64,000 nucleotides of DNA, taken from positions 4,836,001 to 4,900,000 of the forward strand of contig OY540821.1 of NCBI GenBank assembly GCA_961205875.1, given 5' to 3'. The notes beneath the pieces are model-generated. The model was not told where the DNA came from. It searched no databases and was given only the letters and a program-made list of their open reading frames with translations. Positions within the stretch are counted from its first letter, which is position 1. The number at the start of each line of letters is the position of its first letter. This stretch comes from Sialis fuliginosa. Its lineage: Eukaryota > Arthropoda > Insecta > Megaloptera > Sialidae. A program made the translations under genes and the position numbers. Shown here piece after piece: positions 1 through 63,000 of this stretch.

Positions 1-250
1 ATAAGTTATGGAATTTAGAGCAGTGACACTTCAACTAATCGTAATACAGTTGGCATCTTTCATCGTACAAAATAATTTTCATAATATCACCACTGTTTTA
101 ATACCGTTAATATTTACCTACAACGCGTGCACGAAACTTGTCAAAGTCTTCAACAAACTCCAAAAGAACTGTCATATAAGTTTGATATCTCATTTGAAAG
201 TGCTTGCTTGCTAGCAAATTTGCTAGCTCCTTTATAATACCGGACATTAG
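1..250. repeat. Dispersed repeat family A, copy 1
   Basis: This stretch is nearly identical to the reverse complement of 61,565-61,816. Shorter remnants occur near 45,725-45,835, 57,260-57,352 and 61,850-61,910. Most copies end in the phrase CTTTATAATACCGGACAT, which looks like one terminus. I see no coding potential: the small ORFs on both strands are mirrored in the other copy. The family cannot be assigned by eye. It abuts a Penelope-like end at about 250, so it may be part of, or inserted beside, that element. Confidence 0.7.
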
Positions 251-420
251 TATAAATATCAGGTTTGACCAAGACTGTATCAGTCTGGAACTGTTAGGCT
301 CCTGATGAGGATTTCTTGTGAAGTCGAAACACGTGTCGAGTGACATTGTTTTATTGTGGTTAAGGTGTATATTTTTAGTTTAAGTGACTAAGAAACCACA
401 GTTTATCCGTTTTTCCAGTA
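250..420 (+). mobile_element. Penelope-like element terminal repeat (pLTR) fragment
   Basis: The segment matches 55,083-55,222 in the same orientation and the reverse complement of 54,600-54,720. Those two arms flank a GIY-YIG endonuclease ORF. It carries a hammerhead-like core (separate entry) and ends in the sequence that also forms the outer edge of the 54.6 kb copy. No reverse transcriptase or endonuclease ORF remains here, so this is a terminal fragment. Confidence 0.7.
291..345 (+). ncRNA. Hammerhead-ribozyme-like motif in PLE terminal repeat
   Basis: The core CTGATGA lies at 302-308. A 6-bp stem II follows (310-315 with 320-325, loop TTGT), then GAAA (326-329), a 2-bp stem III with an ACGT loop, and GTC at 335-337 as the expected cleavage triplet. 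Stem I forms from CTC/GAG plus a G-T pair, then, after a small internal loop, TGT/ACA. One extra unpaired G (309) between CTGATGA and stem II departs from the textbook core. Penelope-like elements are known to carry minimal hammerheads of this kind. Activity is not established. Confidence 0.6.
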
Positions 421-780
421 ATAGTAGGTGACATTATTTTGTCAATGAAAAAATTTAACTCCTTTCACCTTCTGAAACGTCTATTTATAACCACAACGAG
501 TCTTTGTTCTTTATACCCCCCCCCCCTCTCCCCGCCCTTGCCATTTTAATCTATACGGCACTGTATCATATTTTAACCACAAAAAAATAAATTAAAGTAT
601 AAAATTAATAATCTTCTAAAACTTCACAACCATCAACAGGCCCTTGTCCTTTATACCCCCCCCCCCCTCCCCCTCCTGAAACATCTAGTTGCGCCACTGT
701 TGACAACCGCATATGCATGAATGAAACCAGTCAAACTGTCCGTTACAGCTGACCCTCTCTGTCTAAAGGTGTAAGTGGGA
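421..780. other. Non-coding stretch with poly-C tracts
   Basis: Two C-rich runs (about 516-536 and 655-680) follow the same phrase, CTTTATACCCC, so they are copies of one short repeat. A TTGCGCCACTGTTG phrase near 691-704 resembles the CACTG ends of the hAT-like MITEs found elsewhere in the window. No coding signal was found. Confidence 0.5.
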
Positions 781-16610: not shown

Positions 16611-30088
<13,478 letters not shown>

Positions 30089-33407: not shown

Positions 33408-36400
33408 ATGAATTCTATAAAAAGTTTATTCACAAGTAAGGTAAATATGATTCTAAAAATTAACCTTAAATACGTTAAATAATTTGGATCGAGATATATA
33501 TTATAAATATTTTATAGTTGAATTTGTCTAGAAAATTTTTTTTTTCATTTTACTGTTTAGATTTTACGTTCGAAGAATTTTTCACGTATATTAAATTCAG
33601 GAAAATTTACGAGGTCTTGTTCTAGTCAACCACAGCCTGCTACGTTCTTAACAGAAGATGAAGAGATGATGAAAAATTCAGGTAGATCGAAAGATATATA
33701 GTATTTTATTGTACACGTTACGTATTTATTTATTTTACAGTATCTCGACTGGCGAATGAAAAAATAGCTCCGCTAGTAAAAAAAATGGAAAGCGATGGAC
33801 GACTAGATTCATCTGTTTTAAATTTACTTTTTGAAAATGGGGTAAAGATATTTTTATTTAATATATATCGATGGCGTTACTGTAGAACGGAATATATTTA
33901 TTATGTTTCAGTTAATGGGTATAGAAATAGACACAAAGTACGGAGGTGCAGGTAGTAGTTTTATGGCATCAATATTAGCGATAGAAGAAATATCTAAAGT
34001 TGATCCAGCGGTAGCTGTTCTTGTGGATATACACAATACGTTAGTTAACGCATTGATTAAGAAATGGGGCACCGAACAACAGAAAGATAAATACCTACCG
34101 CTCTTAGCTACAGAATGGGTAAGTCACAAATATACATAGCTAGGCCTGGTGACAACTAAACCAAGTCCGGGACTTAGGAGCCCCATTTGAAAAAAATTAA
34201 ATAAAATCAGGTAGAATCTACATTGATTTAAAAAAACAGACCCCGACTGAATAAATTAATAGTTACTAATGGCAGAATCTACCCCCCCCCCCCCTCTCCA
34301 GACGTAATAAAATAATAATAACAGATGATTCATTTTTAAGGGGAGTAGTTTTGCTATATCTGAAACTACTTCAGGTAGTGATGCTTTTGCTCTGAAGACA
34401 ACAGCAAAACAAGACGGGGATAAATTCGTTATCAACGGATCTAAGATGTGGATTTCTAATTCAGATATCGCAAAACTGTTTTTAGTTTTTGCGAATGCCA
34501 AGCCGGAATTGGTAAGTTATACAGGGTGTCCCACAGGATGGTGTTGAAACTAATCAGCTGTCTTTTTCAAACGGATATTGTTATTGAAAAAACAAACATA
34601 GCATTGAAAAGAAGAAAGTCTACAGTTTTTCATGGATATAAATAAAATTTAATAAAATATTTGTGCATCAATTTATTTTTTCTGTTAAAAATTATATTAA
34701 TGCAAATTTATTGCCCAAAAATGGAGTAAGCTATCGCATAAATTTAAATAAATAATGAGTTATAACCTTTTTAGTGTGGTTTCACTCTTAACTTTACGTT
34801 TTTCGTATTTAATACGAAAACTCCTACAAGAACTGCTATACGCTTTTCCTCTCGAAAAGAAGCACTTTTCAAGAAGAAAAGTCAGATTATTCATTTTGAC
34901 GCACATTTTGATTATTATTAATGTATTTTATAGAAATCAAATCAATTTTGAACATCGAAGATATGAAAATGTTACTTTAACCGATTTTCTTAAAAATACC
35001 CACCTTTTTCATTAATGATTTCGGCGCAAAGTTTTGGTTTTATTTGAAGAGTGGTGGTGGCTCAGTGATGGTTTGGGGCTGCTTCAGATGCGTGGGACAA
35101 CATACAACCACAAACATTAGAAAAACTTGTTGAAAGATTGCCTAAAATCTGCGCCGAAATCATTAAAGCAAAAGATGGTCATTTTCAAGAAAATCGGTTG
35201 AAGTAACATTTTCATATCTTCGATGTTCAAAATTGATTTGATTTCTATAAAATACATTAATAATAATGAAAAAATGTCTAAACTACATATGTTATGTAAG
35301 TTGATTTCGTGAAATAATCAAATAAAATTAAAAAATTGTTTTTTCTTTATGTGTATTCCAAATCTTGGCTTGTACTGTACATAGCCAGAATAAAATTGCA
35401 GCCTCTCCTCTTTTCAATGCAATTTTTATTTTTTCAATAACAGCATCCATTTGAAATAGCTGATTAGTTTTAACACTTTATCGGGGGTATTATTACATGT
35501 TTTCCGCATAGATTTTAAACATATATGTGTTTTGTTACGGTAGGGCTACAAAGGAATAACCTGTTTCATTGTAGAACGCGATACGCCAGGTCTAACCATC
35601 GGTAAAAAGGAACAGAAGCTTGGAATATGTGCATCGGGAACGTGTACAGTTCATTTAGATAACGTTGTAGTTCCAAAAGAAAACATATTGGGAGAAGTCG
35701 GTACAGGGTACAAGTTAGCAATCGGTATACTCAACGAAGGAAGGATAGGAATAGGAGCTCAGCAAATAGGCATAGCACAAGGATGTTTCGACGCTACAAT
35801 TCCGTATACGTTAGAAAGAAATCAATTTGGGAAATCGATATTTAGTTTTCAAGTGAGTTTGATTTTATTTATTAATTTCAAAATTTTCGTTGTTTGTTTT
35901 TTCTGACAACATGAAAACTACTGAACCGATTTTGATGAGACTTTCACTGTTTGAAATTAGTTTAAACTGGTGGTAATTGAATTAATATGGATTTGTCTGA
36001 GATAATCTCAAAAACTACTGAACCGATTTTGATTAAATCTGCACTTTCATGTTCCTTGAAACCTCAGAGGTATATCGTCACGCGATCACTCAAAACAGCT
36101 GTACAGTGAATTAATAAGTCAAAATTTAATTTGAAAATTAAAAGAAACTACATAAAAATTATGTATGGAAGTTTTTTAGAGTTCAATTAGTTCTATATAA
36201 AAGTTTGTGAGACCTCAAATAGTTTAAATTCACTCATTGATTGAACCCCGTAATTTTCCGACAGTTTGTTTTATGATTTAATAACTAGTTTTTCTATTAA
36301 TTAAATCAATATCTCATTTTTGATATCTTTAACAGTCGATGCAACATCAAATAGCGCAAGTAGCTACAGAAATAGAGTGCGCCCGTGTTTTAACATACAA

Positions 36401-38382: not shown

Positions 38383-39288
38383 TTAATCTAAATTTAACTG
38401 TCCAATTTTATTTATAATAAATTCCGTATCTTCTGGATTATATTCTGGTTCTTTACAATTTTTCCAGAAGTCCGGAGCTAGCAATTTTAATTGTGTATCT
38501 TTAAAAACGTGAACTGATAAATCGTTAAATATATTCATGTATTTAAATGTATTTATTATACAAATTTCTGTAACGTATGGTGAAATATTTAAAATACACT
38601 CAGCTTCATCGTTTAATACATTTTTCGGGTTACGTTCGATAATTTCTGTGAAACTATTTGCAATTAAAATACAATCTTTTAATGAGGTACCCCAATTTGT
38701 CCACAGTAAATTGTTAGTTAATTGTTTTGGACAATGAGGCATAAAAACAATCGTTGGATTATTTAATTTAATTTTTCGTTTTCCTTCTTCATTTAATTTA
38801 ATCAATTCAAAACCTAACGATTCTAATATTTCACACTCGCATTTATAAAAAATAGGGTCATGTACGTACGATTTAACGTTAAACTTATCTTTTATACACA
38901 GTAATAATGCTAATTGGTATCGCGATGACATAGAGTTTGCGATATTTCCTAAACCATAAGAAACTATCTCTTTAATTTCTGGGTTACCTAAAGTATCGAT
39001 TGCTTCTCTAATTGTTGCTGAGAATGATTCGTAGAAATCTGATTGTACAATGTCGTCTTTCGCTGATAGGATTCTTCTGAATAGGGAAAAAGTTAGGTTA
39101 AGTTATGTCATACTTAAAAATAATTTCCAATATAAAACGTACCTCAGTGCTATTGCTTTATCAATAGTAGGGTCGTCAGTTTCGAAGTTATTATCACCGT
39201 TGATAATTGATTTTATTCCAATTTTCTTACTTTTCCGTCTTGAAGACACGAGTTTAAAATCTTCTTCTGAATTATGACATTTTGCCAT
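38383..39288 (-). CDS. SRR1-like protein
   Basis: Two exons (39288-39143 and 39076-38383) give 279 residues. SRR1 domain landmarks are all present: SYGLGNIANS...YQLALLL, VHDPIFYKCECEILESLGF, and FMPHCPKQLTNNLLWTNW. The family is named after Arabidopsis SRR1 (a light and clock regulator). The animal protein (SRRD) has been linked to heme biosynthesis and circadian output, but its biochemical role is not settled. The N-terminus is basic and Ser/Lys-rich (SSRRKSKKIG). I chose the ATG at 39,288 because the longer open frame has no upstream ATG. It is divergent with DNLZ (274 bp between starts) and lies just upstream of FMC1 on the same strand. Confidence 0.88.
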
Positions 39289-41991: not shown

Positions 41992-44507
41992 CTAGACTCT
42001 CTTTGGCTTACTGATAACGGCATACGCCGTCTCGTTTATAATATTATGCGGTATACCCTCGCACTGCAATACTACATTGTTTGCCAGCGCCTGCTTGACG
42101 CTGTTCTTGCCATCTGCAAGTCCGTCATTCTTTGATGATCTCCTGATCATCCCATACCCAAGATGTGAGTCATCTGCAGACCTAACTGCTTCCATTTTAG
42201 TGTCGACGTTGATCACGTCATACGCGTACCAAGCAGGTGGCTCGTTGTCTTCACATTTGATGCATCTGTCTGATGTCACTGTTACCTGTTTGTGTTTAAT
42301 AATGTTAGGTTATGGGTTTCAAAAGTAATTTAAAATTAAATATTCACAGTGGCGCCGAAACCAATTTTTTTCTGGGGGGGGGGGGGGCAGTACGTCATAT
42401 TTTTTAAACTAAAAATGAATAATACAAAAATGTTTGATTGTGAATTTTCAACTAAAGTTTCGTCAATTTAACCAGGGCTTTGAACCGTTATTTTTTTCGT
42501 TTAGGTTTTCGTTCCGGTTCGAGTAAAAAAATATATTTCGGTTCGGTTCCGGTTTTTGTTCCGAAAAAAATAACGGTTTTTCTGGTTTTTGGTTCAGCTT
42601 CAGTTCAAAGTCCTGGATTTAACTATCGTGAATAAAATTCTGACACCTACCTGCTTATAAGAAGACGTCGAAGCACTTGGTTTTTTGCAAACATCTTCAA
42701 GAGTAGGTTCGACATGCACCTCTTCATAATCATTTATATCAAAATCTCCAAACGAAGCCTGCGGCTTTACAACCATCACTTTCTCCCCCTTTTCCCCCTT
42801 ATCCTTCCCAATCAGTCCATGCATAACTGTCGTATACCCAGGCCTCACTTTAGTAAGCTTGCTCGGTGCCGAAAAGAACTGCAGCTTGTCATAATTTTCA
42901 TCATCTTCTTGACACTGTATCTGCGTGATTATTTTCGATGCTTCTTGGAAACTTGGCCCCTTTCGATTAGGCTCTTTTTGTTGTTGTTTGGGCCACTGCG
43001 TCTCTTCGAGGAGGTTGTTTTCAAGGACGGTGCTGTAGTTTTCTGTGTGGTTTACGTCATCTACTCCCAGCGTACGCCATGCGTCGTTTCTTACTTCGAC
43101 GATGTCGTAATTGAGGTTTTTGGGGTTGTCTTCAATGAGCTCGTAGTCGGGGGTTTCTGGGATTTCTGTTTTGGTTGGGACGTTCTTACGTGGAGGTTTG
43201 TTGGGGATGATTTTTTTCAATGGTTTCTATAAAAGAATATTTGTAATGAATTAAACAAGTCTAAATTAAGGAATCAAAATCAGTTTCTTTAAATATAATT
43301 AAAAACTGCAGACAGAATTATTATTATCAAAACTCACCTGACTGTCAGGGAACATAACTGGCATATTCTTCTTATTCTGACACGATCCTCCTACATTACT
43401 TTCCAGCGTAGACATCTTAGAACCCACTGTCTTAGCCGTAGTCGACAAAAACTTTGATGTAATTGGTAAACCTGTCATTCCAGTAATACCCGTTTGACTT
43501 AATAACGACGGCTGATTATACGAAAACGGTTGCTGGAAACTTGATGACGAGAAAGAAGATGGATACGTAGGAGATGACGGGGTTGTCAGAGATATAGGAC
43601 TCCGGGATCTTGCTTCCATACTAACCGCAGCTTGAAATTGGCCTTCGATTGTGTTCAGTTGATTCACAGAGTTCGGCGCTGAATCTTCAGGTTTTGTTTT
43701 CATCATTGACTTCATCTTCGTTGATAAACATCGAAAGATCTCTTCACGGTTTGAGTGCTCCAAGTGGAACTTACCTTCTCCAGATTGACACTTTCGTCCT
43801 GCTTCAAACGTAAATTTCCCATTTGAATAGCCGTATCTTCGTATGTACTTGTACGGCCATGTGTATAGAAGATTATCATTCGACGGGAAGCGCAATTGCA
43901 TCTCGGTGTTAGTTAGCACAAGCGTATATGTTACTGGTTGCAAGCCACAACGTTCTGAGGCGTCCGATGAGCTAAGATGTACTGTGAATACACCTTCACC
44001 GCTAGAGCAGTATAATTCATTGTCTTCTACTATACTTTGTGCTCTGTAAAAGAACAATCAGTAGTAATTTAATTTATCTATTTTTTTTTTATTGTTTACC
44101 TCGAACTATCATCTTTAAAGGCAACGTTTTGTAAATTAACAATCCACTCTTGTAATTCTTTTCCGTCTGTAGCACCAAACGTATTGTTCCATGTTTTTGT
44201 CACAATTTCAAACGTAGTTGTGTCTTTTTGAGCAATTTTAACACAACCGTCTAGTGTTAAGATTTTCGAGGTCCCTGTACCTATAATTGAAATATCATTT
44301 GTGCTCGTATCGTAAACTTCCAGTCTTTCCATCCCGAATCTTGAAGCAGCAAATAGAGCACAGAATTTCAACTGCCATGCTTTCTGAATTTAAAATAATC
44401 ATTAGTTTTGTATAACTTGTAAATATGTTTTAACTTACTTTTAAAACAATCTTCCCTTGGGGTGGAAAAAGTAATATTCCAGCGTGTACTGGCTTTTCAA
44501 CGTTCAT
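41992..44507 (-). CDS. Dok: Dok family adaptor (downstream of tyrosine kinase)
   Basis: Five exons on the minus strand: 44507-44439, 44383-44100, 44043-43338, 43226-42651, 42285-41992, all in phase, 642 residues. Dok proteins are membrane-recruited adaptors that bind activated tyrosine kinases and pass on or dampen Ras/MAPK signals. An N-terminal PH domain (about 1-117) begins HAGILLFPPQGK. An IRS-type PTB domain (about 120-225) is shown by RRYGYSNGKFTFEAGRKC followed by SGEG. The tail is long and disordered with several likely phosphotyrosine sites: TPDYELIED, NYDIVEV, ENYDKLQF, NDYEEVHVEP and WYAYDVINV, plus a basic proline patch (NKPPRKNVP). It looks complete. The stop (TAG) is at 41,994-41,992. 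A small hAT-like MITE sits in intron 4, about 35 bp beyond the donor. Confidence 0.92.
42350..42395. repeat. CAGTGGCG end with poly-G in Dok intron 4
   Basis: CAGTGGCGCC is followed by about 15 G within 25 bp, the same pairing seen in the MITEs at 23,021 and 50,184. No matching second end was seen, so it is probably a truncated copy. Confidence 0.5.
42473..42615. mobile_element. Short hAT-like MITE in Dok intron 4
   Basis: The ends are CAGGGCTTTGAAC and GTTCAAAGTCCTG (one internal mismatch). Flanking 8-mers AATTTAAC and GATTTAAC agree at 7 of 8. The interior is made of GGTTCGGTT/CCGGTTTTTG-type repeats. It is 143 bp long. Confidence 0.8.
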
Positions 44508-52712: not shown

Positions 52713-53628
52713 TTAGAGTGGTCCTTATATGGGGTTAGGACGAATTTTGACCGGGCCGCCCACCAAATCAGCTCCAAATAATTTTAAAAAAATCTGGAAA
52801 AAGTTTCAGCTCTCTATCTTGAAAAATGGCCATTACCAGAGGGTGGTGATTTTCTCATTTAAAATACACGTATTTTTTCGAATTTTCAAAGACCTGCGTA
52901 CTAGAGTGTCTTAAATTCTTTCCAAATATCTAGAATACTCGCGAAAGAATTCCTAGTACTCATATTCCATATCTAGATTGATAAATTAAATTTGTGATTC
53001 AACGTTGACAGGTATATGGGCCATTTGGTCATTTCATCAAGAGAAAATTTTTAACAATTTTTTTTGGTATAATTTCTGGATAATTTTGTCAGAAAAATGT
53101 TTGACAATGAAAACATTGATCTTAAAATAAATAAAAAATTGATTCTGAAATCAAAAAAGACCATTCCATATCAATTTCTATCTTTTCTACTTTGTTAATT
53201 TTAATTTTAGAATCAAAATATTTTATTTCAAGATCAATATTTTCATTGTCAAACGTTTTTCTGACAAAATTATCCAGAAGTTATACAAAAAAAATTGTTA
53301 AAAATTTTCTCTTGATGAAATGGCCCATATAGCTGTCAACGTTGAATCACAAATTTAATTTATCCATCTAGATATGGAATATGAGTACCAGGGATGCTTT
53401 CATGAGTATTCTAGATTTTTAGAAAGAGTTTAAGACACTCTAGTACGCTTATCTTTAAAAAATCGAAAAAACATGTGTATTTTAAATGGGAAAATCACCC
53501 CCTCTGGTTATGGCCAATTTTAAGATAGAGGGTTGAAACTTTTTTCACATTCTTTTTGAATTATTTGGAGCTGATTTGAGGGGCGGCCCGGTCAAAATTC
53601 GTCCCAACCCCATATTGGACCACCCTAA
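52713..53628. mobile_element. Giant foldback element, about 0.92 kb
   Basis: The left end is TTAGAGTGGTCC and the right end GGACCACCCTAA. Long arms pair through 'gaccgggccgccc', AAATCAGCTCCAAATAATT and 'tctatcttgaaaa', down to a centre near 53,170. The flanks share TGTATA. The sequence is unrelated to the other giant foldbacks in this window. Confidence 0.88.
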
Positions 53629-53639
53629 TGTATATAACT

Positions 53640-54599
53640 GACTCTTATCCTTGAGTCATGGAGAGCTTTGTGACCTACAGAAAAGCTCATAAACTTTCTA
53701 ACAATGTCTATAATAGTGTCATATACCTACATACTATTGATTTTTTATACATATAAGGTGTTCCTTTATACGAATCAATAAACTTATTAACTTTTCATTA
53801 GCTTATTAAAAAAGTTATTACTCACACGAACGATTCGTTATTTTAATGGATAAAATTCATTGTCCAATTTCATAAATCCCCCTCCTTCCCCCATTTTGTC
53901 GCGCGTGCAAAATCTGTTATGTCACAAAAATGTATAATTTTAAAGGGGATGTAATTATTTGAGCAGTTTTTTTAAATATTCGGGCGGTTACATTGGGCAG
54001 TTAATAATTCATTTAGGCAGTATTAAACTTTTTGTGCGGTAATTAAATCAATTGTGGCAGTAAAATGTAGCAAGTAATATACAAGATTTTGGTAAGTTAT
54101 TTAATCTTACAGCGGCAGTTAAAAACCTACTACTAAAGGAGGACATACTACTTTGTACCCCAAAAATTGATTATATAAAAAAAATACAAATTCATAAAAA
54201 GGTTCTAATAATCTAATTTTTATTGAAATAAAAATAAAAATCAATGTTTTTTCAATTATAGAAAACCACGATAAGAATTTACGTTAAAATTAGATTAATA
54301 ACATAATAAAATCACTTAAAAAATAAAATTTCTAACACGAAATTCAGTAATATAATTTTATTTTCAACTTTCGCTATTTTTCATGTGATTACGTTAAATT
54401 ATGATTACAAAAAAAATACACAGCTTGTGAAGTTTCCGTTATCCTTTAATTTATATCCAAGAGTTATAACTATACCTGACGGTTCAAGGTCAATTTAGTG
54501 CTATAGTAAAATAGCTGTTTGGGGTTAAATTCAGTGGCGTAACGTTAGGATTAAAATTTAAGTGGCTCTCCATAAACCAGTTAGTTTTGTTACTCTACT
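53640..54599. other. Non-coding stretch between foldback and PLE
   Basis: The DNA is AT-rich. It contains a TCAGTGGCGTAACG phrase at about 54,530, a stray CAGTGGCG-type end. No gene or paired ends were seen. Confidence 0.45.
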
Positions 54600-54663
54600 G
54601 ACCACTAGAAAAACGGAGAAACTGTGGTTTCTAGTCACTTAAACTAAAATATACACCTTAACC

Positions 54664-54725
54664 ACAATAAAACAATGTCACTCGACAGGTGTTTCGACTT
54701 CACAAGAAGTCCTCAAGATTTCTAG
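54664..54725 (-). ncRNA. Decayed hammerhead-like motif, PLE left arm
   Basis: On the minus strand the stem II hairpin GACTTC-TTGT-GAAGTC, GAAAC and GTCGAGTGAC are kept, but CTGATGA is replaced by ATCTTGAG and the stem III loop is ACCT. It doubles as the end of the endonuclease ORF. Without the CTGATGA core it should not cleave. Confidence 0.5.
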
Positions 54726-55106
54726 GCTTTCTGCTGCGTCCAATTGATTGTTATTACTGCATGTTTTAATTAGTTTTAAATTACTTATGTCTGTAGTGTG
54801 ATTTAATGTAGTCATATGATGAGCTACGCTGGATTTATCAACCCGGTTGTATTTTAGGTGAGCCATGTGCTCTTTAAATCTAATGTTTATTGATCTCCTA
54901 GTTTGTCCTATGTAACTTTTGTCGCAATTTATGCAGTTAATTTTATAAATACCCGATTTTTCATTTACTTCTGTTTTATCTTTGGGGTTACCTAGGAGAG
55001 TTTTAATATTGTTATTATTAGAATAAACCAATTTAAAGTCAATTTTTTTAAACATTTTAGTAAGTAGTTTATGGGTCCTTTTAGTATAAATATTAGGTTT
55101 GACCAA
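54678..55106 (-). pseudogene. GIY-YIG endonuclease part of a Penelope-like element
   Basis: The open frame of 142 residues includes SGIYKINCINCDKSYIGQT, i.e. GIY...YIG with the CxxC insertion typical of Penelope-like elements, then RRSINIRFKEHM with the conserved Arg, and a histidine-rich VAHHMTTLNH block. This is the nicking domain that primes target-site insertion. The upstream reverse transcriptase is missing, so the copy is dead on its own. The C-terminus (RTSCEVETPVE) is translated from the decayed hammerhead region of the terminal repeat. Residues 1-40 are a basic linker. Confidence 0.85.
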
Positions 55107-55125
55107 GACTGTATCAGTCTGGAAC

Positions 55126-55181
55126 TGTTAGGCTCCTGATGAGGACTTCTTGCGAAGTCGAAACACGTGTCGAGTGACATT
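55126..55181 (+). ncRNA. Hammerhead-ribozyme-like motif, PLE right arm
   Basis: CTGATGA at 55,136-55,142, stem II GACTTC/GAAGTC with TTGC loop (55,144-55,159), GAAA at 55,160-55,163 and GTC at 55,169-55,171. Stem II is perfectly paired here, while the copy at 291-345 has a G-T pair, so the stem is conserved with change. The same extra G follows CTGATGA. Confidence 0.6.
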
Positions 55182-55844
55182 GTTTTATTGTGGTTAAGGT
55201 GTATATTTTAGTTTAAGTGACTCTACTGACCAATGAAAGGTGTCAAATTCTGTAGGGAAACAAGAGCAAGAATATATATATACGAGTATGTATGTATGTG
55301 TGCATAAACATATCACGCAAACTATAAAGTCGATATAGTGAAGAGAGAAGTCCGTTAATAATTATATGTATCAAGCTTTTTAATCTCGTTTCCTTTTTTT
55401 ACGAACTACCTACGCAATATTTTTTTAAATCTAGATTATATATTTTTTGGATATAATGTTTTCGCGAAACGTTAAATCACGTAATGCATATTGTATTTCT
55501 TTAAGGAATATGTATATTATGTATACAGGGTGGTACAAAAGAGTGAGTGAAATTGTATTTTTTATGTTTATTTTTTAATTCTATTTTCATTTGGAACCTA
55601 AAGTATCCCAACTTTACCTCTCGACAAATCGGCCCTGCAGATTGGGTGGTGTATATAGGCCTTTAGTATACAATAATAATACATTTAATAATTTTGTTAT
55701 CTTGTAAACACTTTGAACGGGGTATTAGTTCTGTGGGATTTCTTTTGTATTTACTAAAACCTAGTTAACTATCTGTTTGTCACCACTGTTTTAATACTAT
55801 TGCTTCCTCGTAATATCGAAGATATGAGAAGCTTTGTGATCTTT

Positions 55845-56400: not shown

Positions 56401-57238
56401 TACAGTGCGTTCACGATGAAAGGAACAAATTCGTTTAAAATTCAGGTAATTATTTTGTAGAAAAACGCTCGGACCCGTCGATTAGTATTTTTAGTTGCGG
56501 ATGATGTTCTGACATAAGAAAATTGTATACAGGGTGTCTCAGGAAAAACATATGCAGTCATCATTGATTTTTTTAAATGGAACACCCTATATATTATACC
56601 ATTTTTGAATTGTGCAATAAATTCTGAACACTGTTTGTACAGCATATCATATCTCTAAAATCAGTGGTTTTCGGAATAATGACGTTTGAAAATTGACATT
56701 TTGAAATACACACAAGTCAAATAAAATGTTTAAATTGAACAAAAACACCTTGAACATTTTTTAAAAGCCAACAAAAACATCCTGGTATGGCAAAAAAAAA
56801 ACATTGAACTTTTTTTTCTTTTATTTTTCTTTTTTTTTCTTCTTTTTTTCTTTTTTTGCAATACCAGGTTATTTTTGTTGACTTTTAAATGTTCAAGGTG
56901 TTTTTGTTCAATTTAAACATTTTATTTGACTTGTGTGTATTTCAAAATGTCAATTTTCAAACGTCATTATTCCGAAAACCACTAATCTTAGGAATATGAT
57001 ATGCTGTACAAAAAGTGTTCAGAATTTATTGCACAATTAAAAAATGGTATAATATATAGGGTGTTCCATTTAAAAAAATCAATGATGACTGCATATGTTT
57101 TTCCTGAGACACCCTGTATACAATTTTCTTATGTCAGAAAATCCGCAACTAAAAATACTAATCGACTGGTCCGAGCGTTTTTCCACAAAAGAATTACCTG
57201 AATTTTAAACGAATTTGTTCCTTTCATCGTGAACGTAT
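56401..57238. mobile_element. Giant foldback element, about 0.84 kb
   Basis: The left CGTTCACGATGAAAGGAAC pairs with the right GTTCCTTTCATCGTGAACG. Pairing continues for about 400 bp per arm to a centre of poly-A and poly-T/C runs (56,796-56,860). The two arms give mirror-image ORFs (YRVFHLKKSMMTAYVFPETP in both), which shows how similar they are. The phrase 'tacagggtgtctc' within the arms is shared in type with other foldback and Tc1-like elements here. Confidence 0.9.
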
Positions 57239-60020: not shown

Positions 60021-63000
60021 ATGAAAATAAAACCGGAATTGCTCAAAACTGATAGAGAATACAATGACGTAAGTATTTTGATAATTTTTATTTTGATCAG
60101 CTGATTTTTGTTTATTAATTAGGACAGTTTGGTTATGGATTTTAAAATTAAATTATATTTCTAGTAAAAATAAAAATATCAAATGTATAGGTATAATAAA
60201 AAGGGGCTTAGGTATCAAATTCCAGATCAATATGTATTTATGTTTTTAGTTCCATTTGGTTCCACTATAAAAAAACGTCTTATTTGATGACATAAAACTC
60301 CGGAACTATAAATCAAACAAATTTCAGAATGATGTTAAAATATTCGTTAGTTTTATGTGTTAAAATTTTAAATCATTTTGTGAAATCGTTGGGAAGTTAC
60401 GGCCATTAAAGTAAAATACTGCTATATAATTATCAAAAATTCGAAATTTTAATACAAAGACAGTAGAATAATTAATTAATTTTTATTGAAATCTGTGACT
60501 AATTTACCCTTTAAAATTTTTGAACTGAATTAAAAAAATATGCATAGTCATTTTTGATACACCAGCTTTTTAATTTTATTCCAAATTTTTAATAATAATC
60601 GTTTAGATTATAATGCAAATGCTTTATTTATATTAATAATATTATCTTTACATTATCAGTTGACTCCAATAGTAGATATAAATATAACCAATTAATCAAT
60701 TGGTTCAATTTTGATCAGTGGTGTAGATAGCTTTTTACGATGGGGGGCGATATGACAAGTGATGGCTGAGGAGCCTCTAAAATATACGAAAAAAAAATAA
60801 ATGATTAATGTAATTTAAAATTGAATGACTTTTTTTTTTTTGATCATACATTTTTTGTAGTTAGTTTATTAAAAAAAAAAGGTAATTCAAAATTAACTGA
60901 CCTCAATTTCCCAAATTTTTCTTATTTGCTTCTACAATTTTGTTCATACTTGGGAAGTTTAAAAAAAATATCTGCCTTGGGAACCACGAGACTTTCTTAT
61001 ACCTAACCTAACCTAACCTAACAGTGAATTGTATACGTAATTCTTTGTTTTTTTACTTTTCAAATATTAAGAACAATTTCTCTATTTTTGAATTGTATTT
61101 CTATGAAAATAATACTTTTTGAATATTTATCAAGATAATTATATTTTCGAATCATGATAACAAATATTATTTTTTATTTATTTTGTTACAGACGGTTCTG
61201 GAAGGAGGAGGAAGTCAAGTTGAAGAATTAGACCTCTGGAGTCAGGGATATTCTTTACGGGACCATTCGAACAGTCCTATCAATAGGTATTTATAACTTA
61301 TAATATATTCCAGTGTTGAAATCAGAGGGTTTACTCTGAAAGAAAGGGTAGAGTGATGAAGAAAATCATTTTATTACCGATTTCAAAAAAGGAAGAGATT
61401 CTCAATTCGATAATATATATTTTTATGTAGGGGAAAGTGGGGTAGATTCGTACAAGGGGTACATACAGTAGCTAAATATAGACTATCTTACACGTTTACG
61501 ATTTCATCTTTTTGTACGTGAGTTGTACGTATGCGTCCACTCGTCCCATGAATTAAGTCGGTGCACAATGGGTCTAATGTCCGGTATCATAAAGGACCTA
61601 ACAAATTTGTTAGCTAACAAACACTTTCAACTGAGATATCAAACTTATATGACAGTTCTTTTGGAGTTTGTTGATGACTTTGACAAGTTTAGCGCACGCG
61701 TTGTAGGTAAATACAAACGGTATTAAAACAGTGGTGATGTTATGAAAATTATTTTGTACGGTCAAAGATGCCAACTGTGTTACAATTAGTTGAAGTGTCA
61801 CTGCTCTAAATTCCATAACTAATCCATAGATACTAGTACAGAATTAATACCTCATTTGAATGTAATTGCTAGCTAGCAAATTTTGTTAGGTCCTTTATAA
61901 TACCGGACATAAATCACATATTTTTGCGCGAAATTTCGCTTCAAGCCAATTTTCAACCAATTTTAATGTAGTCAGTCACATTGAAACTTTTTATGAAAGA
62001 AAAAAAATTAAAACCAACTTCAAAAACTGTTAAATTTCATTATTATATACTATTCAGTATTTTTAAGGTTTCTTCGACGTTTTATTTTTTTCTTAAAAAG
62101 TTTTTAATTCTGGATTCAACATTGAATATATTGTATTTAAATAAAGGTTATTGGATAATTTAAAAAATATTAATTTATATTTCCAGTAGATGGAACAGCA
62201 GTCAAAGCTGGTGTAAACCATCATGTATTCCAATTTCTATTATCCTTATCCTGATCTTCCTGGTCGTCCTTTTACCTCTCTTAGACCACGCCATGGAGAA
62301 GGATAACGAATTTATAAATAGAGCTTATCATGAGCTGTACAACGGATGTCCCAATTCTTGCAAGTAAGTTCTACTTGTATTATAACTAGCTGTTATCTGC
62401 GACTTCATCCGCATAGAATTTGTATTTTTATTATCTATAACCAATTTTTCGGGAAACAAAGTAGGCTATGACCTTCCTTAGGATGCAAGCTATCTCCCTG
62501 AGAAATTTCATCAAGATCGGTTCAGCAGTTTAGTTGTTACCCGCGACTTCGTCCGCGTGTAATTTGTATATTTTTATTATCTATAACCATGAATTACAAA
62601 TAATTTTTGTTCTGTTTACATTTAAAAGTTAATAATTGAAAACAAAATAAACAACTGCCTGCCGAGCGCAGAATCTTTCCTCTGCCTCGTGACACTTCAT
62701 TATAGTTCGCGCGAATTGCCGCGAATAATATGTTACTGTATGCATATTTCAAGTTATTTCCTAAATCAAAAGACCAAATTGGATGCTGTAAAGGGCAAAT
62801 TATATCTACATTAAGTATTTATGACGATGAAATAATTTATTTCGATAAAGATTAATGTTTTGCAGGTCATAAGTACACGTAAACAGAACCCAAATATTTT
62901 AAATTTTCTTTGTAACATAAAAGCAGTCACTGTGGCTTAAATATAAAAGTTAGACATATGGTGTCGCTGAGTTTATTGTAGATCTTTTGATTCTACATAA

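Follow-up and report, generated by a model that had tools for sequence, protein, structure and literature searches.

A hammerhead ribozyme motif in the terminal repeats of Penelope-like elements of Sialis fuliginosa, and the ends of their insertions

The window, which is the whole 64,000-nucleotide stretch of Sialis fuliginosa DNA that was analysed, carries what is, judged by its sequence, a small type-I hammerhead with a collapsed stem III in the terminal repeat (pLTR) of a Penelope-like element. The RNAs that were reverse transcribed to give the sampled short insertions of this family (family 1) and of a second family (family 2) were mostly uncut at the ribozyme. The reading that we consider probable is that the pLTR contains a type-I hammerhead under selection, which would act as a leader ribozyme, perform poorly as a lone monomer and be left uncut in most templates. 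A hammerhead in a Penelope-like pLTR is of a known kind, and the count of insertion ends is the useful new element.

The motif and the element that carries it

The plus-strand letters at 302-337 of the window are CTGATGA-G-GATTTC-TTGT-GAAGTC-GAAA-CACGTG-T-C. They comprise the catalytic core CTGATGA (302-308); an extra nucleotide between A9 and stem II (309), which is G here and T in family 2; stem II (310-325), formed by GATTTC (310-315) and GAAGTC (320-325) around the loop TTGT; GAAA (326-329, G12 to A15.1); and the palindrome ACACGTGT (329-336), which would close a stem III of 2 bp in a monomer or form a duplex of 8 bp between two RNAs. The common forms of the two families agree in the core, the GAAA and the palindrome. 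C17 in hammerhead numbering is placed at 337, and the cleavage site predicted from the hammerhead consensus lies between 337 and 338. The 5' strand of stem I, GCTC (298-301), faces GAGT (338-341); of the stem I that the first-pass annotation had drawn around an internal loop, three Watson-Crick pairs and one G-U beside the core are supported, and the putative pairing beyond the loop finds no support here. The ordered parts that it had named (CTGATGA, a 6-bp stem II, GAAA, a short stem III and GTC) are all present, both at 302-337 and in a second full copy at 55136-55171, with predicted cleavage between 55171 and 55172. Thus CUGAUGA, GAA-A and UH occur with stems I, II and III in the type-I order, and the departures from the consensus are the one extra base after CUGAUGA and a stem III of just 2 bp. 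A stem III of at most 2 bp combined with a palindromic loop is as in the small hammerheads of Penelope-like elements (PLEs).

Copy 1 lies in a solo family-1 pLTR at 247-424 (plus strand), which blastn aligns to the pLTR of locus L044 with 96.6% identity over 178 nt, and its region forms direct repeat D4 with 55081-55209. The left end of the hammerhead copy is abutted by a 250-nt inverted repeat (window 1-250 and 61574-61823, 92% complementary). The motif is abundant: a 36-nt pattern with at most three mismatches has 1,635 copies in the 392-Mb genome and a pattern further downstream in the family-1 pLTR has 1,602 occurrences, with none for the reversed control of the first or the control of the second. 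A pattern that takes A, C or T where family 1 has its extra G has 629 exact matches (control 0), and the 100 listed among them belong mostly to family 2. The pLTR copies of family 2 number about 1,000.

The Penelope-like terminal repeat named in the first-pass annotation is supported by a reverse transcriptase match in a related copy, by a GIY-YIG stretch beside copy 2 and by the order of ORF and pLTR. A genome search with the GIY-YIG stretch gave 881 candidates, of which 150 were scored, and most of the 30 ORF-linked loci have the ORF stretch, about 105 nt and then a hammerhead-bearing pLTR on the same strand. Locus L064 has an open frame of 854 residues with an RVT_1 match (6.2e-15); no GIY-YIG row was returned for it by Pfam at 0.001, and a GIY...YIG signature is visible by eye, giving reverse transcriptase and GIY-YIG in one ORF as in Penelope. 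The same 13 nt, AGTCGCTATATTG, stand at both ends of the L064 element, as judged by eye. The GIY-YIG stretch beside copy 2 scores 20.1 bits, just below the Pfam cut-off of 22.6. A PDB search found no match at 0.001, and the 21 stretches of viral_contigs that matched the ORF peptide patterns include none that encodes a relative. Elsewhere in the genome, five GIY-YIG remnants with identical scores recur at a spacing of 7,366-7,368 bp (G000:C10:3223682-3253357), which is a tandem repeat of a segment.

Copy 2 belongs to a complete insertion (54605-55219), made up of a minus-strand piece and an inverted plus-strand piece between two copies of ACTCTACTGACCA. The 13-bp target site duplication (left copy 54592-54604, right copy 55220-55232, both plus strand) was equalled in 0 of 100 shuffles. 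The first piece (54605-55079, minus strand) is 5'-truncated with a long 3' end, and its ORF remnant (55079-54711) matches the L064 frame at 87% over residues 698-819; the second is a pLTR piece (55080-55219, plus strand) with a short 3' end, which carries the hammerhead. Between them the genomic copies thus display pLTRs, an inverted pLTR, a tail and a target site duplication, and the second insertion of the window has an ordinary Penelope architecture when compared with the account available in PMC3846280. A third, partial hammerhead (54715-54676, minus strand), from which the 5' half of the core is gone, is joined to the ORF by what appears by eye to be an internal deletion. A designed overlap in which the ORF runs into the hammerhead was considered and rejected, because most other loci have about 105 nt and the pLTR after the ORF stretch; the end ...RTSCEVETPVE* is due to the deletion. 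Other features of the window are an inverted repeat at 56503-57143, whose 257-nt arms are 97% complementary and separated by 127 nt, further foldback repeats resembling it at 21088-21635, 52823-53521 and 34906-35272, and host gene exons encoding a TANC1-like protein (24980-26962), an SRR1 domain (38383-39102) and an IRS-type PTB domain (43299-44057).

Resemblance beyond chance and a second family

A descriptor that required CTGATGA, zero or one extra base, a stem II of at least 4 bp, GAAA, a stem III of at least 2 bp, UH and a stem I of at least 3 bp matched only at 302 and 55136 on both strands of the window and nowhere in 200 dinucleotide shuffles. The looser pattern CTGATGA...GAAA is not significant alone, with three matches in the window and at least three in 13 of 100 shuffles. 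Covariance model R1, which was built with both full window copies, scored these at 78 and 77.7 bits (copy 1 matching at 294-345), the partial copy at 41 and the best other place in the window at 15.4; alignment A1 has nine rows, copy 1 among them, and three of the nine are family-2 variants. The Rfam search that had been proposed as a check gave no match at the gathering score, Hammerhead_1 (RF00163) reaching 17.6 bits where the cut-off is 34. When 301 bases were scanned permissively, the same model had the lowest E-value of five matches (0.13), and family 2 was not reported by the Rfam type-I model at E up to 2. The gathering score is a database threshold and not a chemical definition of a hammerhead.

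Family 2 has 51-57% identity to family 1 in the GIY-YIG endonuclease stretch and carries a hammerhead at the same place, with the common form CTGATGA-T-GATAGC-ATT-GCTATT-GAAACACGTGTA, followed after the predicted cleavage site by AGTCT. Of 20 regions that follow the family-2 ORF, 12 contain the strict motif in sense orientation, and R1 exceeds 40 bits in 16 of the 20; by eye, two of the other four stop at the ORF end, one has its hammerhead deleted and one is decayed. The core is changed in several regions (L078, L081, L084). L084 also has one antisense match to the strict motif, which looks like chance.

The two families differ at half of the paired positions and keep the pairing: 108 of 108 cells are paired and both partners have changed in 6 of 12 pairs in an alignment of nine rows that were chosen for an intact core and in which a single divergence underlies the covariation. 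Within stem I, three of four pairs are changed on both sides between the families. Neither the per cent paired nor the covariation score was reached by any of 500 shuffles, the count of doubly changed pairs alone was reached by 125 of 500, and structures slid by one to three columns are just 22-41% paired; the stems are thus kept by paired changes in these nine chosen rows. Identity between the families exceeds the maximum of 200 shuffles from the core to the cleavage site (25/36; shuffle maximum 23) and in the tail (22/35; 21), and falls short of it from the start to the core (11/20; 12), in the promoter (23/40; 25) and from the cleavage site to the short RT start (31/48; 32). Because core, fold and position are common to two families in which half of the stem pairs differ, the sequences support selection for the fold on active elements, with single copies decaying afterwards.

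The two copies in the window do not themselves bear on this. The first-pass annotation had noted that stem II differs between them and had taken the difference, which keeps the pairing, as a hint of selection. The T-to-C difference is real, but it is one-sided and leaves a G-U. The base at the 312 site is C in 25 of 25 variants that have the site (out of 26 distinct variants, the set being ORF-linked copies that span the whole stretch, with shorter matches dropped), so that C is the family norm and the T of copy 1, which at least 14 genomic copies share, is derived; a single transition that keeps a G-U pair gives no information on selection. A selection signal among copies within one family was likewise sought and rejected, the core being not clearly better kept than the rest: mismatches number 17 in 792 core cells versus 162 in 5,096 for family 1 and 11 in 516 versus 60 in 3,221 for family 2, and none of the 12 core letters is changed in 49 of 66 family-1 and 35 of 43 family-2 pieces that span them. 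This lack of a difference in the sampled short insertions is what a chance resemblance or a neutral relic would give. Against that reading, to which we assign a very small probability, stand the empty shuffles and the second family, with the same motif at the same place and with paired changes; on the descriptor shuffles and the covariation test, chance is very unlikely.

Transcription start and cDNA ends

The ends of insertions were counted at 60 family-1 and 40 family-2 sites. These were the first exact matches listed for a downstream pattern, with 56 of the family-1 and 39 of the family-2 sites on contig C1, a choice that favours young copies, and one listed family-1 site (L031) and one family-2 site (L071) were left out. 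For family 1 the pattern covered the stretch 15-49 nt past the cleavage site and so placed no constraint on where the 5' end fell. Most of the sampled insertions are short, 15 of 101 family-1 pieces ending upstream of -62; several alignments were assessed by eye, and the blast-derived ends may be off by a few bases.

A TATA box, TATAAATA (251-258, plus strand), lies 31 nt before a putative transcription start at 282, the A of an initiator-like TCAGTC, at which 5' ends cluster; 35 of 101 family-1 pieces end at -59 to -55 from the cleavage site. In family 2, TATAAATA likewise lies 31 nt before that family's own cluster. There the A that was predicted from the TATA box before the count (-50) is the commonest end (12 of 70), 31 of 70 ends fall at -50 to -45, and 15 fall in the 5-nt start window. 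Both families together have 50 of 171 cDNA ends in the 5-nt start windows. The cluster probably marks the transcription start, with the core beginning 15-20 nt downstream, and a start upstream of the core would make the ribozyme part of the element's 5' leader and let it recur between the units of a tandem transcript. The possibility that stem II serves as a DPE was rejected: GGACTT stands at +28 in family 1 and agrees in five of six letters with the DPE consensus, but a TATA box is present at -31 in either family, and family 2 has nothing like a DPE at +28.

The cleavage site leaves no footprint among these ends. The interval -3 to +1 holds 2 of 101 and 1 of 70 ends, where the neighbouring positions predict 2.5 and 2.2 (P 0.71 and 0.89), whereas cDNA from a cut template would end at 0. 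Since cDNA ends cluster at the start and are at background for the cleavage site, the templates of these short insertions were mostly uncut there. Uncut templates do not show that the ribozyme is inactive. Five of the 70 family-2 ends lie exactly at -4, in the stem III palindrome (L155, L156, L168, L171, L178), and these keep the TGTA upstream of the cut.

These counts bear on a model in which the ribozyme processes tandem transcripts to unit length and the resulting cut RNAs serve as templates, as has been proposed for retrozymes, which are held to move via self-cleaved, circularised RNA in the available part of PMC7229834. The hammerhead does recur in each pLTR, and four hammerheads stand at 176-bp spacing at one place, but only 3 of 171 ends lie at the cleavage site, which is the background level, versus 50 of 171 in the start windows, and the five family-2 ends at -4 include bases upstream of the cut. 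Processing of this kind is disfavoured for the sampled short insertions, and we consider it unlikely overall. The place in question, L031 (G000:C1:39235500-39237800), is a head-to-tail repeat with five register copies and four hammerheads at the 176-bp spacing, reminiscent of retrozyme arrays.

RT start sites, pairing of leaders and the role of the hammerhead

The 3' ends form two groups in both families, at about +46 to +47 and at +82. Family-1 ends at +44 to +49 define a short RT start site (about 382-387), enclosed by a hairpin of GTGGTT (356-361) and AACCAC (394-399; whole hairpin 356-399, plus strand), which recurs in family 2 as ATGGTTA/TAACCAT with one paired change from G-C to A-T; ends at +80 to +84 in 45 pieces define a long site (418-423, plus strand) at the end of the tail. 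Head-to-head insertions make up 39 of the 60 family-1 sites, and target duplications there, counted with no chance control, are at least 10 bp in 25 of 60 sites and at least 6 bp in 31 of 60, with a mode of 12. One long and one short end are combined in 27 of 28 classifiable pairs among the 39 of family 1, the other being short-short (P about 1e-7 under independence), and in 17 of 17 classifiable pairs among the 25 of family 2 (P about 8e-6), where the unclassifiable pairs (11 and 8) are set aside and the boundary between long and short was chosen once the end positions had been seen. At L032 (1978-2180), a palindrome of two inverted pLTRs has 101-nt arms that are 100% complementary and 1 nt apart.

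The one-long-one-short rule fits a scheme in which the stem III palindrome pairs two RNAs in a particle, one RNA is copied from the long and the other from the short site, each onto its own DNA strand, and the paired ribozymes cut only once copying is done. We rate this scheme as decidedly doubtful. The base at -40 is common to both pieces in 9 of 9 informative family-2 pairs, and a second column agrees in 16 of 19, for 25 of 28 overall versus a shuffled mean of 75%; family 1 has no informative column for such a comparison. The common base at -40 counts against two different RNAs and also fits one RNA copied twice. Retroviral leaders carry a dimer-initiation palindrome, to which the palindromic stem-III loop of a hammerhead in the 5' leader would, in this scheme, be comparable.

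The RNA of the window shows no unusual stability (z -0.97, with 31 of 200 shuffles folding equally well). For a copy 1 monomer the hammerhead fold is predicted at -5.9 kcal/mol, versus -17.4 kcal/mol for the predicted fold, which is not a hammerhead. Ensemble pairing of stem II is predicted at 0.86 or more in single leaders of both families, and that of stems I and III in monomers at near 0 in family 1 and at about 5% and 0.1% in family 2; the predicted competing hairpin in family 1 uses UGUC and GACA. The palindrome ACACGUGU is predicted to form an 8-bp duplex between two RNAs at -10.3 kcal/mol. Action assisted by a dimer or a protein would be the natural reading of this folding. Thus, in the mechanism that we favour, the leader transcribed from 15-20 nt upstream of the core would contain a hammerhead able to cleave between GTC and G (in family 2 between GTA and A), though poorly as a lone monomer, and either two RNAs would pair through ACACGUGU and build a proper stem III or an element protein would help.

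Templates that stay uncut and a monomer hammerhead that is disfavoured in predicted folding are also what would be seen if the conserved fold were a binding or initiation structure for an element protein that no longer cuts or never did, and the spacings from cleavage site to RT start, nearly equal in the two families (about +46 to +47, and +82), agree with such a role. However, the core letters are the same in both common forms while the stems have turned over, which argues against it, since binding alone would not require CTGATGA, GAAA and UH to be kept. We regard a binding structure without cleavage as improbable and retain the selected leader hammerhead.

The closest known systems each share part of this arrangement. 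Small Penelope-like hammerheads reportedly cleave as dimers, as papers that cite them say of the work of Lunse, Weinberg and Breaker in 2017 and of Cervera and De la Pena in 2014. The families described here resemble these dimer-acting hammerheads in the type-I order, the collapsed stem III and the location in the pLTR and, as far as the citing papers describe them, are set apart by the one extra base between A9 and stem II that both carry. The palindromic stem-III loop is a trait ascribed to small PLE hammerheads in the portion of PMC6466107 that was available. In PAc, a Poseidon element of Anolis carolinensis, the hammerhead cleaves only with protein added and mutants still insert normally, according to the accessible sections of PMC11167929. 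The same sections describe a hammerhead at the junction of pLTR and ORF, two internal RT start sites that bound a tail and an uncut RNA template, all as here; the ORF of PAc begins at stem II, whereas the first in-frame ATG of L064 follows a tail-like hairpin, and the evidence for PAc consists of assays, whereas here it consists of genomic ends. Penelope elements of the rotifer Adineta vaga share inverted pLTRs, a TATA box with an initiator-like motif and duplications (8-10 bp), and may carry a 31-bp tail on one inverted pLTR, in the material consulted from PMC3846280; they differ in that the word hammerhead occurs 0 times in the main text of that paper.

The extra G itself had been suggested to be a family-specific variant. 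An extra base is present in both families, but only family 1 has G there, and family 2 has T. The plus-strand hammerhead of chrysanthemum chlorotic mottle viroid also has an extra nucleotide between A9 and G10.1; the host and element are unrelated to those here and the viroid's base is A. At that position A slows cleavage, C or G is strongly harmful and U speeds cleavage 3-4-fold, according to the part of PMC3705267 that was available, and the G of family 1 would therefore be unfavourable. The occurrence of G and U in two families is a natural experiment on a position that tunes the speed of a hammerhead.

Uncut templates bear on the question of what Penelope hammerheads do. Genomic insertion ends test, with no need of new experiments, whether the cDNA stops where the transcript begins or where the ribozyme would cut, and in both families it is the former. 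The same count of ends is feasible in any genome that is rich in solo pLTRs.
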